IMG/VR virus record: IMGVR_UViG_3300042898_001922
Location: 1 to 21,837 of that record
Source: a virus
Direction: 5' to 3' (one strand)
Length of the DNA stretch: 21,837 nt
The position numbers and the translations under genes were made by a program. The notes under the pieces were generated by a model. It had not been told where the DNA came from. It saw nothing but the letters and a program-made list of their open reading frames with translations, and did not search any database. Shown one piece after another: positions 93-21,333 of this stretch; within the stretch, counting starts at the first letter, position 1; every line of letters starts with the position of its first letter.

Positions 93-410
93 TCAAACCT
101 CTTTAATCGCCTTATTAACCATACGAATCAACATTCTCTTGGTTACTTTATTTGCATCAAATGTCTCCGTATATCCCCCATGAGGCATTTGTTCTTTAGT
201 TAGATAGTGTCCGTATCTATCCCTTAGTGTTCTTAGTACTGTAGTTTCTACTTCTTTTGCCCTATACCGTTCAAAAAAATGCCAATACTTAATTAAGATC
301 CAACCTTTTTGTCTGTGGCTTGCAAACCTTTTACCTGAGATATCAGATATGCCTATCTTAATAGCCCTATGCTTTGGACTGTATAGTAGGTATAAGACTG
401 CTTGCTCCAT
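93..410 (-). CDS. GIY-YIG-superfamily (T5orf172/MUG113-like) protein
   Basis: The 105-residue protein carries the pattern of the T5orf172/MUG113 branch of the GIY-YIG fold: a first strand LYLLYSP (residues 6-12), then KIGIS (18-22) replacing the classical YIG, a conserved GW (36-37), a helix with acidic residues E53 and E55, and the tail motif LTKEQMPHGGYTETF (70-84). GIY-YIG relatives are nucleases or DNA-binding proteins and are common as free-standing phage genes. Seen: the motifs. Inferred: DNA-related function; nuclease activity is not established. The ATG at 410 is 6 nt downstream of a minus-strand TATAAT, so the mRNA may be leaderless. The gene is divergent from the oxygenase gene at 465. 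Confidence 0.72.
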   Translation of the reverse strand: MEQAVLYLLYSPKHRAIKIGISDISGKRFASHRQKGWILIKYWHFFERYRAKEVETTVLRTLRDRYGHYLTKEQMPHGGYTETFDANKVTKRMLIRMVNKAIKEV

Positions 411-431
411 ACCCCTATTATAGGCTATACT
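402..431 (+). promoter_or_regulatory. Putative sigma-70 promoter upstream of the 2OG oxygenase
   Basis: TTGCTC (402-407), an 18-nt spacer and TATACT (426-431) lie in the divergent gap and inside the 5' end of the leftward gene. A second TATACT at 437-442 could be an alternative -10. The following ribosome site AGAAAGG (about 450-456) precedes the ATG at 465, so unlike several genes here this mRNA would carry a leader. Confidence 0.4.
417..422 (-). promoter_or_regulatory. -10 box placing +1 at the ATG of the GIY-YIG-like gene
   Basis: The minus strand reads TATAAT, then AGGGGT, then ATG at 410. A TATAAT ending 6 nt before the ATG puts the usual transcription start on the A of the start codon. 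No good -35 hexamer is seen at 16-18 nt spacing (TTATAG is the nearest at 18). AGGGG could also act as a ribosome site if transcription starts further upstream, but it would sit unusually close to the ATG. Confidence 0.45.
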
Positions 432-1158: not shown

Positions 1159-1188
1159 CGCCGAACTTGACAAACTATCCGCCGAACT
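1159..1188 (+). repeat. Direct repeat CGCCGAACT x2 overlapping the promoter (candidate operator)
   Basis: CGCCGAACT occurs at 1159-1167 and again at 1180-1188, a start-to-start distance of 21 bp, about two helical turns. The first copy runs into the -35 box and the second fills the spacer up to the -10 box. Its GC-rich content stands out from the AT-rich surroundings. The arrangement suits a regulator binding one face of the helix over the promoter; that role is inferred. Confidence 0.6.
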
Positions 1189-1195
1189 GTATAAT
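1167..1195 (+). promoter_or_regulatory. Perfect consensus sigma-70 promoter, leaderless start
   Basis: TTGACA (1167-1172), a 17-nt spacer and TATAAT (1190-1195) match the sigma-70 consensus at every position. The ATG of the next gene begins at 1202, exactly 6 nt after the -10 box, so the expected +1 is the A of the ATG. There is no Shine-Dalgarno sequence between. It should drive the cascade of small genes from 1202. Confidence 0.85.
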
Positions 1196-1201
1196 GGATA
1201 T

Positions 1202-1375
1202 ATGAGCATAGACGATATGACACTACGAGAAGAAATAGCCAGGGCTATAGAGGCCATACCTATTGAGGACTCAGTTACCAATGCACTTGGTATGCGTATG
1301 CTTGCTGCAGATGTAGCAAGAGGGTTGGATAATTATATGACTCAGTGGTTTGAAAGACAAGAAAACTTTGAATAA
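1202..1375 (+). CDS. Small acidic hypothetical protein (57 aa), leaderless
   Basis: The 57-codon frame starts MSIDDMTLREEIARAIE and ends in NYMTQWFERQENFE. It is hydrophilic and largely predicted helical, with no Cys, no signal and no membrane segment. The start is set by the promoter rather than a ribosome site: the ATG is 6 nt after a consensus TATAAT. It is the first gene of a run of short overlapping genes. No homologue is recognised; its position behind the strongest promoter in the right-going arm suggests an early-expressed product. Confidence 0.65.
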   Translation: MSIDDMTLREEIARAIEAIPIEDSVTNALGMRMLAADVARGLDNYMTQWFERQENFE

Positions 1376-2830: not shown

Positions 2831-2836
2831 TACAAT
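2831..2836 (+). promoter_or_regulatory. Extended -10 box giving a leaderless start for the PD-(D/E)XK gene
   Basis: TACAAT is preceded by TGA (extended -10) and followed by 6 nt (AAACAT) and the ATG at 2843. TTGGTC (2806-2811) at a 19-nt spacing is a poor -35. The fixed 6-nt gap matches other leaderless starts in this window. Confidence 0.5.
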
Positions 2837-2842
2837 AAACAT

Positions 2843-3283
2843 ATGGAAAACTTTCAATCACAATCTAAGAAGTCAGGAGACGCTTTTGAAGAACTTGTAT
2901 ACGCAGATTTGGTTAATAGGGGTTTTGGTCCTATTGATAGAAATTATTGCTTTGAGGATGCTGGTTGTGAAGTAGATTTTCGTGCCCATTCTAATATTCA
3001 AACTGAATATGTTGAAGCAAAGGGTGGCCTTTCTGGTGAAGGTAAGAGACCAGGGGCACAAAGAACTGACAATGTTAAAAAAGCAATTGCTAATGGTGCA
3101 TTAATAAAAACCTCTAATGCTTTATACTATGTTGTTTATTTTTCTGCTAAACCAGAACCAGGAAGTTATTCAGATAACATGATTAAAACTGCATTAAGAC
3201 ATAAGATTGTTGATGAAGTTAGATATTTAGAACCAGTTAACCAGTTTAAACAGTACTGGCTTGATTTTGATAAAGAATTTTAA
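2843..3283 (+). CDS. PD-(D/E)XK nuclease-like protein
   Basis: The 146-residue protein has the small restriction-endonuclease-like core in the expected order: an N-terminal helix with acidic residues (GDAFEELVYADLVNRGF, E16/E17), a strand with GCEVDFRAH (D45), a strand EYVEAKGG providing E58-x-K60, and a C-terminal helix/strand pair (LYYVVYFSA). D45, E58 and K60 would form the active site. This suggests a DNA nuclease (Holliday-junction-resolvase, VRR or restriction-like); the exact subfamily is not clear. No Shine-Dalgarno sequence precedes the ATG, fitting the leaderless start. The next gene begins 19 nt downstream with its own ribosome site. Confidence 0.68.
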   Translation: MENFQSQSKKSGDAFEELVYADLVNRGFGPIDRNYCFEDAGCEVDFRAHSNIQTEYVEAKGGLSGEGKRPGAQRTDNVKKAIANGALIKTSNALYYVVYFSAKPEPGSYSDNMIKTALRHKIVDEVRYLEPVNQFKQYWLDFDKEF

Positions 3284-11564: not shown

Positions 11565-11723
11565 CTAATTTATAATCTTAAATAGTATAGCATATCCAGC
11601 CCATAGCCCTACAATTCCTGCTACCCCTGCAAAAACTGGTGGTGCAGGAACTGGCAATTTAAATGCAGCAAATACCACGCCACAGCCAAACCCTGTTAAT
11701 GTTGATAATAATATATCTCTCAT
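11565..11723 (-). CDS. XapX/DUF1427-like small membrane protein
   Basis: A 52-codon frame starting at ATG 11723, overlapping the upstream stop as TAATG. The sequence reads MRDILLSTLTGFGCGVVFAA, then FKLPVPAPPVFAGVAGIVG and LWAGYAILFKIIN. A membrane helix, a central P-x-P-x-P-P motif and a Gly-rich second helix are the XapX (DUF1427) pattern. The biochemical role of the family is unknown. It carries no separate promoter and is translationally coupled to the gene upstream. Confidence 0.7.
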   Translation of the reverse strand: MRDILLSTLTGFGCGVVFAAFKLPVPAPPVFAGVAGIVGLWAGYAILFKIIN

Positions 11724-12166
11724 TATTTTATTTCATCCTCTGGAAGTAGTATTTTTAATTCTTTATATGCTTTTGAAATATTTTTCATAGATGGATAGTC
11801 TGGTCTTGACATAGATAAAGTCTCTCCGTATTCATCAAAGTGAGATATATCTGCATCAACATCGTTAACAAACTTAGTTAAACCTTTTTGCACATTCTCA
11901 ATATATTCAAATGCCCATAATCTAGAATCAGAGAGAAACTTAATAAAGTTTTCTTTATGTATTGAATCATCTGATTCTTCTTTTATTTTTGTAGACTTTG
12001 TTAGATCAACATATTCTTGAAGTAATGTTTTTTCAATAAAAAGTTTTGAAACATCTCTTTTAAGTTTAATAGATTGTCTTAAAACTAAAACGTATGAAAT
12101 TGCAAAACAAAATGACAGGGTTGCAAAAACAACAATAATAATATCTTTCATATCACCACTCCACAT
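11723..12166 (-). CDS. Membrane-anchored coiled-coil protein, leaderless
   Basis: The 147-residue protein (from ATG 12166) has one N-terminal membrane helix (about residues 8-28, IIIVVFATLSFCFAISYVLVL), then a charged helical region with heptad-like hydrophobics (LKRDVSKLFIEKTLLQEYVDL) and an acidic C-terminal half ending KILLPEDEIK. Two starts compete: ATG 12166 sits exactly 6 nt after a perfect-consensus promoter, while ATG 12151 follows GGTGAT. The promoter favours 12166. The layout recalls spanin- or tether-like phage membrane proteins, but no family is recognised. Confidence 0.65.
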   Translation of the reverse strand: MWSGDMKDIIIVVFATLSFCFAISYVLVLRQSIKLKRDVSKLFIEKTLLQEYVDLTKSTKIKEESDDSIHKENFIKFLSDSRLWAFEYIENVQKGLTKFVNDVDADISHFDEYGETLSMSRPDYPSMKNISKAYKELKILLPEDEIK

Positions 12167-12172
12167 ATTTTA

Positions 12173-12201
12173 ATTATATCCTAATGCCTTGGGTTTGTCA
12201 A
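12173..12201 (-). promoter_or_regulatory. Perfect consensus sigma-70 promoter, leaderless start at 12166
   Basis: On the minus strand TTGACA (12201-12196), a 17-nt spacer and TATAAT (12178-12173) are followed by TAAAAT and the ATG at 12166. Every promoter base matches consensus and the expected +1 is the A of the ATG. The -35 lies inside the final codons of the GT60-like gene. Confidence 0.85.
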
Positions 12202-13101: not shown

Positions 13102-13328
13102 TTAATAGCCTCTCTTGTAACCAACACAATTGCGCCTTCCATCTCTAATGCTTTTTTTGCATTTAGTACATACTGTAATGCCTGTATCTTATCATCATGA
13201 ACCATTCTTGCAAATACATATTCGTCTAGTTTAATTGTTAAAAAATGTTCATTATCAATTAATTCTATTTTAAAACCTTTCGGAGGAATTATAGAGTGAA
13301 AGGCTCTACGCATTTGATCTGTATACAC
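13098..13328 (-). CDS. Actinophage-type hypothetical protein (76 aa)
   Basis: Starts at GTG 13328, which overlaps the WhiB stop; an ATG six residues in is an alternative. The C-terminal block KIQALQYVLNAKKALEMEGAIVLVTREAIK is a motif I associate with small proteins in actinobacterial phages but without known function. The N-terminal half looks like a short beta-rich domain (FKIELIDNEHFLTIKL). It lies directly between WhiB and the GT60-like gene with overlapping ends. Confidence 0.6.
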   Translation of the reverse strand: MYTDQMRRAFHSIIPPKGFKIELIDNEHFLTIKLDEYVFARMVHDDKIQALQYVLNAKKALEMEGAIVLVTREAIK

Positions 13329-13612
13329 TATTTCTCCATTGTCAATGCTTGCCAGGTATTAGCCCAGTCTTGTTTAGTTTTATGTTTATTAAACTCTCTA
13401 GATATATTTCCAAGTTCAAGGAATACTCCACCCCAAACACCATACTCTTTACCAGAAACACCGTTAGCAAAACAAATATTTGATACTGGGCATCTTTGGC
13501 AGATTGAGTCTACTATTGGACGTACTTCTACCTCATCTTCATACTTATCAAAGAATATATTGGTATCAAGCCCAAGACAGGCTGCTTCATCTTTCCATAA
13601 ATGTTGTTTCAT
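13328..13612 (-). CDS. whiB: WhiB-family iron-sulfur transcriptional regulator
   Basis: The 94-residue protein has the four cluster-binding cysteines in WhiB order: C12 (EAACLGLD), C38-x2-C41 (CQRC) and C47 (ICFANG), then the G58-V-W-G-G62 turn that contacts the sigma factor, then a basic tail (REFNKHKTK) for DNA contact. WhiB proteins bind a [4Fe-4S] cluster, interact with the primary sigma factor and occur in actinobacteria and their phages. Phage copies can block or redirect host WhiB regulators. Translation starts at an ATG directly abutting the upstream TAA. It is the clearest host-lineage marker here. Confidence 0.92.
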   Translation of the reverse strand: MKQHLWKDEAACLGLDTNIFFDKYEDEVEVRPIVDSICQRCPVSNICFANGVSGKEYGVWGGVFLELGNISREFNKHKTKQDWANTWQALTMEK

Positions 13613-14186: not shown

Positions 14187-14592
14187 TTATTTTCCCATTC
14201 TTTAAGTTATCCAGGATGAATAACATCTTATCTACTTCTTTTTTTGACATTTTGGTTGTGTCTAAAGGCTTGCCAGTTTCTGGCCTAACCTTTCCATCTA
14301 CTGTGTCTCCAACATAAAACATGTTATTTGACACCCAATATGCTTTTTGATCTATTATGACAACCTTAGTTGTTTGTTTGTCTCGCCATATTTTGGATTG
14401 AGAATTAACAACCTTATCATCAAAAATGTCTTTAAAGAAAAAATCTTTTAATATATTATGCATATCGCTTTGACGATATAATACTTTATTAAAAGTTTTA
14501 TTTCTTTTTTTGTTCATTAATATAAGTATAGCGCAAAAGGCTATAGATGTCAACATGATACATAACAAATATAACATTTTATTGTTTACCAA
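14161..14592 (-). CDS. Membrane-anchored phage hypothetical protein
   Basis: An N-terminal membrane helix (LYLLCIMLTSIAFCAILIL, about residues 7-25) is followed by a basic patch (NKKRNK) and a soluble domain with SKIWRDKQTTKVVIIDQKAYWV and MSKKEVDKMLFILDNLKNG. The frame opens with TTG 14592, directly after the upstream TAA; ATG 14577 is the alternative and neither has a strong ribosome site. The C-terminal Gly/Ser tail ends in GSAGN. Function unknown. Confidence 0.55.
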   Translation of the reverse strand: MVNNKMLYLLCIMLTSIAFCAILILMNKKRNKTFNKVLYRQSDMHNILKDFFFKDIFDDKVVNSQSKIWRDKQTTKVVIIDQKAYWVSNNMFYVGDTVDGKVRPETGKPLDTTKMSKKEVDKMLFILDNLKNGKINDSGSAGN

Positions 14593-15263: not shown

Positions 15264-15397
15264 TACTTATCCTTCTTTGGATGCTTCACTTCATATGGAC
15301 CAAGAATAGATTTAACTGTACCGTTTTTATTCATGCGTACAATCTTTCCGTCCTTAATTTGTGTTGCATTAAATGATTGTGCTTTTTTCTTTGGCAT
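15263..15397 (-). CDS. Small basic hypothetical protein (44 aa)
   Basis: The frame starts at ATG 15397 in a TAATG junction and ends in another at 15263. The peptide MPKKKAQSFNATQIKDGK is strongly basic at both ends (HPKKDK at the C-terminus), with a central RMNKNGTVKSILGPYEV. The tight coupling on both sides supports a real gene although it is short. A nucleic-acid-binding or scaffold-like role is possible. Confidence 0.6.
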   Translation of the reverse strand: MPKKKAQSFNATQIKDGKIVRMNKNGTVKSILGPYEVKHPKKDK

Positions 15398-15930
15398 TAT
15401 TTTAAAAATCCGTTCCAAAAGTTATCTGATCCTAATTCTTTTTCAGACTTATAGGTTCCACCACGTCGTTTATATTCTTGTACTACCCAAGAGTTTGCAA
15501 CTGCAGAGGGATACACATCAAACTTATCCTTTGCTGCCTGCACAACTCTTGCATAAAGTTGTGGATTAGAAGGTGTTGATCCGCCTCTTCGTGGTTTAAT
15601 AATATCTTCATAGTTTGGCTTCTTTCCCTTGCCAATTGATGAATCATACATTGCCATTGCAACTTCTGAATTCATATCATGATTGTTTACGTCTGCAACT
15701 TGTGCATCTTTATACATCATTCCAATACTATAGGCTGTGGGTTCCCATTTGCCATCTTCTTCTTTATAAATTCTAACAGACATTGCTGGGTTTTCTGGTG
15801 GCATTGATTCAAGTGCATACTCTGACCCAGGCGTACCCAATGTTCCACCCTCAACCATAATGTGCTCTACAACACCATGCATAACACCCTCAGATGTCCT
15901 GCCCATAACAAAGTCGCCTTCTTTTATCAT
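15397..15930 (-). CDS. Two-module phage protein (TSEGxxxGxVxHIMxEGG + DUF5872-like)
   Basis: The 177-residue protein combines an N-terminal beta-rich module (EGDFVMGRTSEGVMHGVVEHIM, then PPENPAMSVRIYKEEDGKWEPT), known from phage proteins, with a C-terminal module PQLYARVVQAAKDKFDVYPSAVANSWVV followed by QEYKRRGG, which looks like the short DUF5872-type domain shared by phages and large viruses. No catalytic residues are evident. The linker (KGKKPNYEDIIKPRRGGS) is basic. The ATG at 15930 is 6 nt after an extended -10 TATAAT, so it probably starts a leaderless transcription unit running left through the coupled small genes. Confidence 0.65.
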   Translation of the reverse strand: MIKEGDFVMGRTSEGVMHGVVEHIMVEGGTLGTPGSEYALESMPPENPAMSVRIYKEEDGKWEPTAYSIGMMYKDAQVADVNNHDMNSEVAMAMYDSSIGKGKKPNYEDIIKPRRGGSTPSNPQLYARVVQAAKDKFDVYPSAVANSWVVQEYKRRGGTYKSEKELGSDNFWNGFLK

Positions 15931-15936
15931 ATACTG

Positions 15937-15945
15937 ATTATATCA
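15937..15945 (-). promoter_or_regulatory. Extended -10 promoter, leaderless start at 15930
   Basis: The minus strand reads TGA-TATAAT (15945-15937), then CAGTAT, then the ATG at 15930. An extended -10 compensates for the absence of a recognisable -35. The 6-nt gap again places +1 on the start codon. The promoter lies in the 19-nt gap before the upstream gene's stop. Confidence 0.6.
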
Positions 15946-17211: not shown

Positions 17212-17455
17212 AATCTTTATCCTTTAATTTATTTTGAACTAACTTATCTCGTTCGTCAATCAAAGTTAATGCAAAAGACATCATTTTTTTATATCCACTT
17301 GCATCATTCATAATTTTATTATAGTGATGCCCACAAAACATTAAATCTCCAGATATTCCAGTTACTTTAACAAGTGCTTCTGAAGGACAGGAATCACAAC
17401 GATCTGTTGCCTTTAATAGCCATTCTTTTTCTGCAACTGCTTCTGTAATTGTCAT
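17204..17455 (-). CDS. DUF7455-like zinc-binding protein, leaderless
   Basis: The sequence KATDRCDSCPSEALVKVT and GDLMFCGHHYNKI gives C-x2-C and C-x-H-H, the zinc-ribbon pattern of DUF7455, a small family of actinobacteria and their phages. Two ATGs exist, 17461 and 17455; only 17455 (MTITEAVAEKEW) is exactly 6 nt after the TATACT at 17467-17462 and is taken as the start, while the first lies right against the -10. The C-terminus is a charged helix (LIDERDKLVQNKLKDKDYV). Function unknown. Confidence 0.78.
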   Translation of the reverse strand: MTITEAVAEKEWLLKATDRCDSCPSEALVKVTGISGDLMFCGHHYNKIMNDASGYKKMMSFALTLIDERDKLVQNKLKDKDYV

Positions 17456-17461
17456 GTTCAT

Positions 17462-17467
17462 AGTATA
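17462..17467 (-). promoter_or_regulatory. -10 box giving a leaderless start for the DUF7455 gene
   Basis: The minus strand reads TATACT (17467-17462), six bases (ATGAAC), then the ATG at 17455. No -35 of quality is visible. The match to the 6-nt spacing is the main support. Confidence 0.42.
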
Positions 17468-18577: not shown

Positions 18578-18832
18578 TCTGTTATGCGTTCTTATTCTAT
18601 GGCAATTAGCACAAACAACTTCACATTTTTCAATTTCTTTTTTAATTGCTTTCCATGAAAATCCATCGTGGATCATCCTAGATATATTATATTTTTTATT
18701 TTTTATGTGGTCAAAGTCTAAGATTATATGATTGTTAATTCCACAGTCTACACATCCAGAAGCCTCTTTAATTTCTGCAAGCCTCTTCTTTAAAATCTGC
18801 TTATTATAATGGTCTAACTCTTTGTCAGTCAT
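18557..18832 (-). CDS. HNH endonuclease (homing-type)
   Basis: The 91-residue protein (from ATG 18832) is a compact HNH nuclease with a zinc scaffold: C27-x2-C30 (CVDCG), the catalytic strand ILDFDHIKNKK with D41-H42, and the second knuckle EVVCANCHRIRTHNR with C74-x2-C77, N76 and H78/H83. Upstream in-frame codons up to 18874 (a TTG start, MPVWGLIF) would read through the 3' side of the structured RNA and are not preferred. Such stand-alone genes in phages are usually mobile homing endonucleases. A -10 TATAAT lies 7 nt before this ATG. Gene direction and position just downstream of the structured RNA are noted. Confidence 0.83.
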   Translation of the reverse strand: MTDKELDHYNKQILKKRLAEIKEASGCVDCGINNHIILDFDHIKNKKYNISRMIHDGFSWKAIKKEIEKCEVVCANCHRIRTHNRLTSQAS

Positions 18833-18839
18833 TAACATC

Positions 18840-18845
18840 ATTATA
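18840..18845 (-). promoter_or_regulatory. -10 box 7 nt before the HNH start
   Basis: The minus strand reads TATAAT (18845-18840), then GATGTTA, then the ATG at 18832. The -35 region falls in the 3' arm of the structured RNA and has no consensus match. Spacing is 7 nt rather than 6, still compatible with a leaderless or near-leaderless transcript. Confidence 0.4.
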
Positions 18846-18860
18846 CCGTTAAATATTAGG

Positions 18861-18944
18861 CCCCACACAGGCAATTCACCTGACTTGCGCCACGGTCTCT
18901 ATCCAATGGGTAACTATGCCATCGCTAAGGTCCTGTGTGGGGAC
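18861..18944 (-). ncRNA. Candidate structured RNA closed by an 11-bp stem
   Basis: Between the Hsp20 stop and the HNH start, CCCCACACAGG and CCTGTGTGGGG pair perfectly (bases 18942-18932 with 18871-18861) around a 60-nt interior. Inside, ACCT/AGGT (18931-18928 with 18881-18878) continues the helix after a one-sided 6-nt bulge, GCG/CGC (18925-18923 with 18889-18887) forms the next step, and ATGG/CCAT (18922-18919 with 18909-18906) a hairpin with a 9-nt loop. A minus-strand -10-like TACAAT (18956-18951) predicts +1 at 18944, 2 nt before the stem. No long reading frame or known riboswitch core is seen. The orientation is inferred from that box. Confidence 0.5.
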
Positions 18945-18956
18945 ACTTATATTGTA

Positions 18957-20571: not shown

Positions 20572-20793
20572 TTAGTTTTCTTTGATTTTAATTACTACTT
20601 GGCAAGGGTCTCCGCCCTCTTCCCATTCTTGTTGCTCTTCTTCATTCATATAGGGATCACCCTCATGAGTATTACAAAACGGTTCAGTTACCCATCCCCG
20701 TTCAATTCCGTTTTCAAGCCAAATCTCAAACTCTCTATAGTCGGAGTCTTTGTCTTGCATATTATTTAAAATTTCTTCCCATTCTTCGGACAT
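20572..20793 (-). CDS. Acidic actinophage-type hypothetical protein, leaderless
   Basis: The 73-residue protein carries ERGWVTEPFCNTHEGDPYMNEEEQQEWEEGGDPCQVVIKI, the pattern of a small protein common in actinobacterial phages: P-F-C-x-T-H-x-G with a trailing D-P-C. The two Cys and His may bind metal. It is strongly acidic. The ATG follows a TTGACG-N17-TATACT promoter with 6 nt between -10 and ATG. Function unknown. Confidence 0.7.
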   Translation of the reverse strand: MSEEWEEILNNMQDKDSDYREFEIWLENGIERGWVTEPFCNTHEGDPYMNEEEQQEWEEGGDPCQVVIKIKEN

Positions 20794-20799
20794 ATTATA

Positions 20800-20828
20800 A
20801 GTATACTCCTAAAGGCTTACTACGTCAA
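20800..20828 (-). promoter_or_regulatory. Near-consensus promoter, leaderless start at 20793
   Basis: On the minus strand TTGACG (20828-20823), a 17-nt spacer and TATACT (20805-20800) are followed by TATAAT and the ATG at 20793. The -35 differs from consensus by one base and the -10 by one. The promoter lies within the end of the Ntn-hydrolase gene. Confidence 0.72.
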
Positions 20829-21333
20829 CTGGGCCCATGCATGATGGGTTAAATTTAATTGCAGCATTTACTGCTTGAACTACTCTATTCCTTGCATTTT
20901 TTTGCTTATCTGTTGCATACAAAACACCATAAGCATACTCTGCTCCTGAGCCCATAGCAAGATATGGAAGTGTGTACTTAGATAAAGACATATCAGCAGA
21001 ACTGTGCTCATAGATTTGTCCACGAACACAAATAATTAAACCAAGGTCTCCATCTTTAGATGTGTCTACCCAGAACTCATTATAAAATTCTTTTAATTCT
21101 TTGACAAACCTTGTCTGCATAAACCTATCTGTGTCTTTAATATTAGGAGCAGATGGTTTAAAGTTATAACGGATTCTTTCTCCGTCCATTGATCCAGCAT
21201 ATCCAATAAGGTATGGACCTATCTTCCAAACCTTTGGTGCTTCAAGTGCTAGGATAGTTCCATCATCTGATGCTCCACGATCTCCAGCCATATAAACTTT
21301 ATCTTCATGGCGAACAACAGCGATGCAAGTCAT
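20809..21333 (-). CDS. Proteasome/HslV-like Ntn-hydrolase
   Basis: The 174-residue protein begins MTCIAVVRHEDKVYMAGDRGASDDGTI and continues PKVWKIGPYLIGYAGSMDGERI. After removal of Met the new N-terminal residue is Thr1, with Asp17 (GDR), Arg18 and Lys33 (PKVWK) at the places used by HslV and proteasome beta subunits, and GYAG in the SGxxG-like turn. An autocatalytic threonine protease is therefore likely. Length matches HslV (about 170-180). Actinobacteria have a true proteasome, so the phage copy may form its own ring, work with a host ATPase, or process virion proteins; none is proven. GGGAGGGG precedes the ATG. Confidence 0.84.
   Translation of the reverse strand: MTCIAVVRHEDKVYMAGDRGASDDGTILALEAPKVWKIGPYLIGYAGSMDGERIRYNFKPSAPNIKDTDRFMQTRFVKELKEFYNEFWVDTSKDGDLGLIICVRGQIYEHSSADMSLSKYTLPYLAMGSGAEYAYGVLYATDKQKNARNRVVQAVNAAIKFNPSCMGPVDVVSL

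Follow-up and report, generated by a model that had tools for sequence, protein, structure and literature searches.

Consensus promoters placed six nucleotides before the start codon as a probable leaderless format for small genes in an actinophage group

Many small genes of the phage studied here and of its uncultured relatives are preceded by sigma70-like promoters whose −10 box ends exactly 6 nt before the ATG. Leaderless transcription appears to be the best reading of these promoter–6 nt–ATG sites. Exact spacing, its conservation in homologs, the sharing of promoters by unrelated genes and ATGA junctions between adjacent genes are all apparent from the sequences compared. It is highly probable that a sigma70/SigA polymerase takes the A of the ATG as the first transcribed base and so yields leaderless mRNA, that this arrangement is a format for accessory genes, and that the promoter together with ATGA forms a docking module. 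Leaderless genes as such are known from actinobacteria; what is new is a group-wide consensus leaderless module and, above all, its apparent use as a swap junction.

Promoter–start sites in the window

The window is the whole virus record of 21,837 bp, with a GC content of 28–41% per kilobase. Its gene content includes six tRNA genes, a WhiB-like regulator (13328–13612, minus strand), a CHAP lysin, an SNase, an HNH endonuclease and a DUF7455 protein. The initial annotation had described a perfect consensus promoter leading directly into the gene at 1202. This element is present exactly as claimed at 1167–1204 on the plus strand (TTGACA-AACTATCCGCCGAACTG-TATAAT-GGATAT-ATG), and a Shine-Dalgarno (SD) sequence is absent. 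The region is composed as follows:

1159–1167, plus strand: 9-bp direct repeat CGCCGAACT, copy 1, operator-like
1167–1172, plus strand: −35 box TTGACA of the 1202 promoter; all six bases of TTGACA in 29 of 32 distinct homolog promoters
1180–1188, plus strand: 9-bp direct repeat CGCCGAACT, copy 2, inside the spacer, operator-like
1190–1195, plus strand: −10 box TATAAT of the 1202 promoter, after a 17-bp spacer
1196–1201, plus strand: 6-nt discriminator GGATAT; +1 predicted at the first base of the start codon (A at 1202)
1202–1375, plus strand: gene of 57 aa, function unassigned, read from the 1202 promoter; predicted leaderless start

The two copies of CGCCGAACT are 21 bp apart, corresponding to two helical turns, and the repeat is retained in the promoters of several relatives. 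For the 1202 gene, 175 relatives were found and 80 retained; homology among them starts at the ATG at 1202. The promoter stands at 6 nt in 32 of 47 distinct upstream sequences, all of them without SD, and among the 15 upstreams without promoter 14 contain an SD-like motif (random ATGs: 7.7%) and 10 still score with a stricter motif set. Judged by these upstream sequences, the 1202 gene alternates between a promoter-bearing, leaderless-type state and an SD-led state. The promoter-bearing copies keep TTGACA/TATAMT and the 6-nt gap. Since their spacers and flanks are largely unrelated, the fixed gap before 1202 homologs is best explained by selection.

Comparable elements precede further starts of the window, where homolog counts refer to distinct upstream sequences:

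408–422, minus strand: TATAAT-N6-ATG of an endonuclease-like gene (93–410); −10 only, no −35; 11/11 homologs
2831–2845, plus strand: extended −10 (TGA-TACAAT)-N6-ATG of gene 2843–3283; no −35; 4/4 homologs
12164–12201, minus strand: perfect TTGACA-N17-TATAAT-N6-ATG of gene 11723–12166; 24/24 homologs keep the −10 at 6 nt, all with TTGACA
15928–15942, minus strand: extended −10 (TGA-TATAAT)-N6-ATG of gene 15397–15930; no clear −35; 35/37 homologs
17453–17467, minus strand: TATACT-N6-ATG of the DUF7455 gene starting at 17455; 8/9 homologs where the start aligns
18830–18845, minus strand: TATAAT-N7-ATG of the HNH endonuclease gene starting at 18832; 7-nt gap; ATG in 30 and GTG in 2 of 32 homolog examples
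20791–20828, minus strand: TTGACG-N17-TATACT-N6-ATG of gene 20572–20793; 12/12 homologs, TTGACA or TTGACG

The recurrence of the 6-nt spacing at 410, 2843, 12166, 15930, 17455 and 20793, and of a 7-nt gap at 18832, had already been pointed out in the initial annotation, and at each of these starts the spacing is kept in homologs. The −35 box of the 12166 promoter falls within the 3' end of the upstream gene. A search for SD motifs in homologs of the eight starts listed, including 1202, found none apart from those of promoter-less 1202 copies. SD-led controls from the window carry no such −10 box, and their SD is found in 20 of 23 homologs (21333, minus strand) and in 34 of 36 (18521, minus strand). 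The proposal that the phage uses a promoter–start-codon module therefore needs a restriction: the fixed spacing is conserved, but the sites at 410, 2843 and 15930 have no −35 box and ordinary SD-led genes are used as well.

A TTGACA-N17-TATACT-N7-ATG arrangement at 14517 (minus strand) had been overlooked. As a leaderless start it was rejected, its ATG being present in only 11 of 40 homologs though the promoter is conserved. The corresponding TTGACA-N17-TATAMT element (14524–14560, minus strand) lies inside a membrane-protein coding region and is conserved in most homologs. Because the ATG is not conserved while the promoter is, the element appears to be held at the nucleotide level and resembles an internal promoter more than a leaderless start.

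Two other features of the same part of the window were observed. The SD-led gene at 20809–21333 (minus strand) encodes a protein of the proteasome/HslV (Ntn hydrolase) type, relatives of which occur in many large tailed phages. A conserved noncoding element of about 80 nt (18860–18945, minus strand), with a TACAAT box before it, separates the Hsp20 gene from the HNH gene. It has an outer stem CCCCACACAGG...CCTGTGTGGGG with one compensated pair (C-G/U-A, 12:6) and is found in four of five relatives of 106–118 kb; an Rfam search gave no match. This element is possibly a structured, small RNA.

Spacing in related phages and the phage group

In the window alone, exact TATAAT-N6-ATG occurs five times versus zero to three times at each other gap from 0 to 24 nt. 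With one mismatch allowed, 22 sites are found versus 17.9 by chance, so the window by itself leaves enrichment unsettled. A set of relatives was assembled from homologs of the 1202 gene and of the 15930 (minus strand) gene, giving 160 loci and about 2.0 Mb. Among 1,333 distinct sigma70-like promoters in these related contigs, 256 stand exactly 6 nt before an ATG, covering 59 gene families; these site counts are not independent, since the loci were fetched via two window genes and many of the sequences are related. A gap of 6 nt is the commonest one in 52 of 206 gene families, any other gap in at most 7. Five relatives of 106–118 kb together with the window contain 49 sites at 6 nt versus 2.0 expected (mean of first-order shuffles). 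The enrichment at exactly 6 nt anticipated by the initial annotation is thus strong in the relatives.

The gap from a strong sigma70-like promoter to the first ATG that opens an ORF shows a single sharp peak, at 6 nt. The same phages contain a second, broad class of gaps of about 25–38 nt, often with an SD. In the profile of the 256 promoters, T directly precedes the ATG in 80%, C does not occur at discriminator positions 1–4, and the end of the spacer is G-rich. No SD-like motif was found in the ribosome-binding window of 277 promoter-bearing upstreams, an absence that is partly mechanical because the −10 box occupies the SD window. As both signals compete for the same bases, the Fisher test of promoter against SD is not taken as a p-value.

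In samples of viral contigs, an ORF of at least 40 codons is opened by 90 of 135 gap-6 matches versus 27 of 118 gap-10 matches, among the matches listed. Outside the selecting sites, a gap of 6 nt is minor in these unrelated contigs (16 of 856 and 8 of 720 promoters). In other environmental phages (L280, L303, L338 and L388; L279, L284, L354 and L380) long ORFs likewise follow consensus promoters at a distance of exactly 6 nt. Recurring protein starts in these L280- and L279-type phages looked RNase H-like and primase-like by eye, which a follow-up check did not confirm. As these phages share the format, it is not confined to the group of the window. Perfect consensus promoters with no ORF after them were also seen, in AAGGTTTG-like repeats (L014 392–444, L036 241, L043 6847, L050 1148, L065 5846 and L080 7138).

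Leaderless candidates are unevenly distributed along the larger genomes. In relative G005 they cluster at 2–38 kb, in an arm of small genes, and almost none occur beyond 43 kb, where the tail-fibre, virion, portal, helicase, DNA polymerase and terminase genes are found. In relative G001 a few candidates also lie within the structural part. The format thus seems to serve mainly small accessory genes, and structural and replication genes mostly appear to do without it.

The actinophage setting assumed in the initial annotation is supported by the WhiB-like regulator, by DUF7455, for which almost every top cellular match comes from Actinomycetota, and by a relative's terminase, which is closest to those of Streptomyces phages. 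The window contains no terminase gene. TerL of G005 is 54.8% identical over its full length to that of Stanwilliamsviridae (Streptomyces phage Yaboi, MH727564), and the relatives have sizes of 106–118 kb, with about 130 kb being the genome size of that family. By these sequence criteria the phage groups with the actinophages. Searches with the nucleotide sequence and with the 1202 protein found no direct phage relatives. In one actinobacterial order, 80 genomes show a peak at 6 nt for TTGACA-N17-TANNNT sites as well (18 of 82). The full consensus module is found in 0 of 148 genomes of that order, a possible host group whose genomes may be GC-richer. Four candidate host genomes contain no perfect module. 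Since the sites of the order peak at 6 nt and yet the full module is absent from the 148 genomes, the 6-nt geometry agrees with what actinobacteria do, and the strength of the consensus is a trait of the phages.

Promoter sharing and junctions at the start codon

Unrelated genes share promoters far beyond the core boxes. At non-core positions, i.e. bases outside the −35, the −10 and the ATG, 34 distinct pairs of unrelated families agree at 28 or more of 43 positions, where column shuffles give 0.53 pairs and never more than 3. The family definition used BLAST at E<=0.01, at which a few short proteins in separate families could still be distant homologs; single-linkage at E<=0.5 had merged most genes. 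The best cross-family similarity reaches 40/43 and includes the non-operator flank and the discriminator. Past the start codon, identity is near background (0.334 vs 0.304).

Moreover, in several cases the same promoter reads gene B in one phage and gene A in another, where B follows A at an ATGA stop/start overlap. In L003 the CGCCGAACT promoter of the window is followed by a 148-aa MKPIAHIYDVDG gene (MKPIAH), ATGA and then the 1202 homolog (MSIDDM); in the window and in the L036 counterpart the promoter stands directly before the MSIDxM gene. A further series is formed by L048 (promoter-MLDIRG-ATGA-MKLHYG), L065 (promoter-MKLNYG-ATGA-MTCTKY) and L080 (promoter-MTCTKY). Exact ATGA overlap is found in 7 of 8 adjacent family pairs, tallied by hand, where 21% would be the base rate (P about 1e-4). 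The base at +4 is A in 68% of leaderless versus 35% of SD-led starts (p = 4e-6); an A at this position may aid leaderless initiation itself instead of marking the junction. On this comparative evidence the start codon acts like a joint at which genes are exchanged.

A −10 box normally places +1 about 6–7 nt downstream. In the proposed mechanism, a host-type sigma70/SigA polymerase would bind TTGACA-N17-TATAAT and begin transcription on the A of the ATG, and ribosomes would enter the resulting leaderless mRNA at its 5'-terminal AUG without an SD. The transcription start, leaderless translation, the sigma factor and the route of recombination are what we infer from the sequence patterns. Because the start codon would be the sole translation signal required, the stretch from the promoter to ATGA may work as a docking module: any gene placed at its ATG would be expressible, and an ATGA-flanked gene would be removable without a scar. 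Genes would be inserted or lost between the promoter's ATGA and that of the next gene, the direction being either way, and slippage between two ATGA repeats is a possible scarless route. A tentative proposal, about as likely as not, is that leaderless promoters with ATGA at their end are permanent docking sites, at which ATGA-bounded accessory genes are gained and lost scarlessly, and that leaderless initiation allows such editing without new ribosome-binding sites.

Part of the promoter sharing could be due to common operators and not to common descent. If operators were the only cause, the promoters would still be leaderless but alike through the sites of a common regulator, as in a regulon, rather than through gene exchange at a kept promoter–ATG unit. 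CGCCGAA(C/T)T boxes are indeed found directly repeated around the −35, and 9 of the 256 leaderless promoters contain a perfect DnaA box (TGTGGATAA), versus 1.3 expected. However, the likeness extends into flank and discriminator bases that belong to no operator and stops at the ATG, and in seven family pairs the displaced gene lies directly downstream, joined by an ATGA overlap that would not be expected from a regulon alone. We therefore regard operator sharing as the sole cause as rather unlikely. The DnaA boxes often take the form TTGACATGTGGATAAC and stand before several unrelated genes, with L065, L048, L080, L026 and L027 among the carriers; host DnaA might control these phage genes.

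It is clearly improbable that transcription starts farther upstream, giving a short leader, or comes from more distant promoters, so that the −10 next to the ATG would be incidental. The missing −35 boxes at 410, 2843 and 15930 would fit such a view, as would the leadered promoters of the same phages with an SD 25–38 nt downstream, but the exact gap of 6 nt is fixed across unrelated flanks with no SD, and the usual distance from −10 to +1 falls on the ATG here. Chance in AT-rich DNA, with start codons picked by eye, agrees with the lack of excess among one-mismatch sites of the window; it is already refuted by the group-wide count and by conservation in homologs, and its probability is practically nil. 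Leaderless transcription from a promoter–ATG unit onto which genes are exchanged hence stays our preferred reading.

Known systems and significance

Leaderless genes, common in actinobacteria, have TA-like signals about 12 bp upstream of the start (Zheng et al. 2011, PMC3160421), and leaderless translation in mycobacteria both requires a 5'-terminal ATG or GTG and needs nothing more (Shell et al. 2015, PMC4633059). The sites described here resemble the TA-led genes in their −10-like box, the first T of which lies about 12 bp before the start (equal to the 6-nt gap), and in lacking an SD. In contrast to them they are phage-borne, many have a near-perfect TTGACA-N17-TATAMT, and the promoter–ATG unit is common to unrelated genes. 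Start-associated sequences (SAS/ESAS) precede start codons in Cluster K mycobacteriophages (PMC3203893) and Cluster EF Microbacterium phages (PMC7302621), likewise as a repeated, conserved sequence just upstream of many unrelated small actinophage genes. SAS, however, is a 13-bp GGGATAGGAGCCC-like, SD-like motif in ribosome-binding position, whereas the present element is a promoter and occurs in several types; no SD-like motif of the SAS/ESAS kind was found before the leaderless starts. Yaboi of the Stanwilliamsviridae shares a one-strand arm of small genes adjoining a lysin and an HNH gene, but its examined stretch has 49% GC and is mostly SD-led; a −10 at 6–7 nt precedes only about three of the annotated starts (9929, 10410 and 16854, minus strand), which are candidate leaderless starts. 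Phage mosaicism and moron insertion involve exchange joints at gene ends and accessory genes with their own promoters. Here, by contrast, the joint is the start codon of the putative leaderless promoter: the promoter stays and the gene changes. Among the open-licence papers searched, we found none describing this leaderless module in such phages.

For annotation, a −10 box followed by 6 nt and an ATG would locate starts of small phage genes that SD-based callers may miss or misplace. Leaderless initiation, usually seen as an oddity of translation, would be a standard format of accessory genes in this group of aquatic actinophages. It would alternate with SD-led initiation of one and the same gene, and it would offer these phages a concrete route to rapid gene turnover at start codons.
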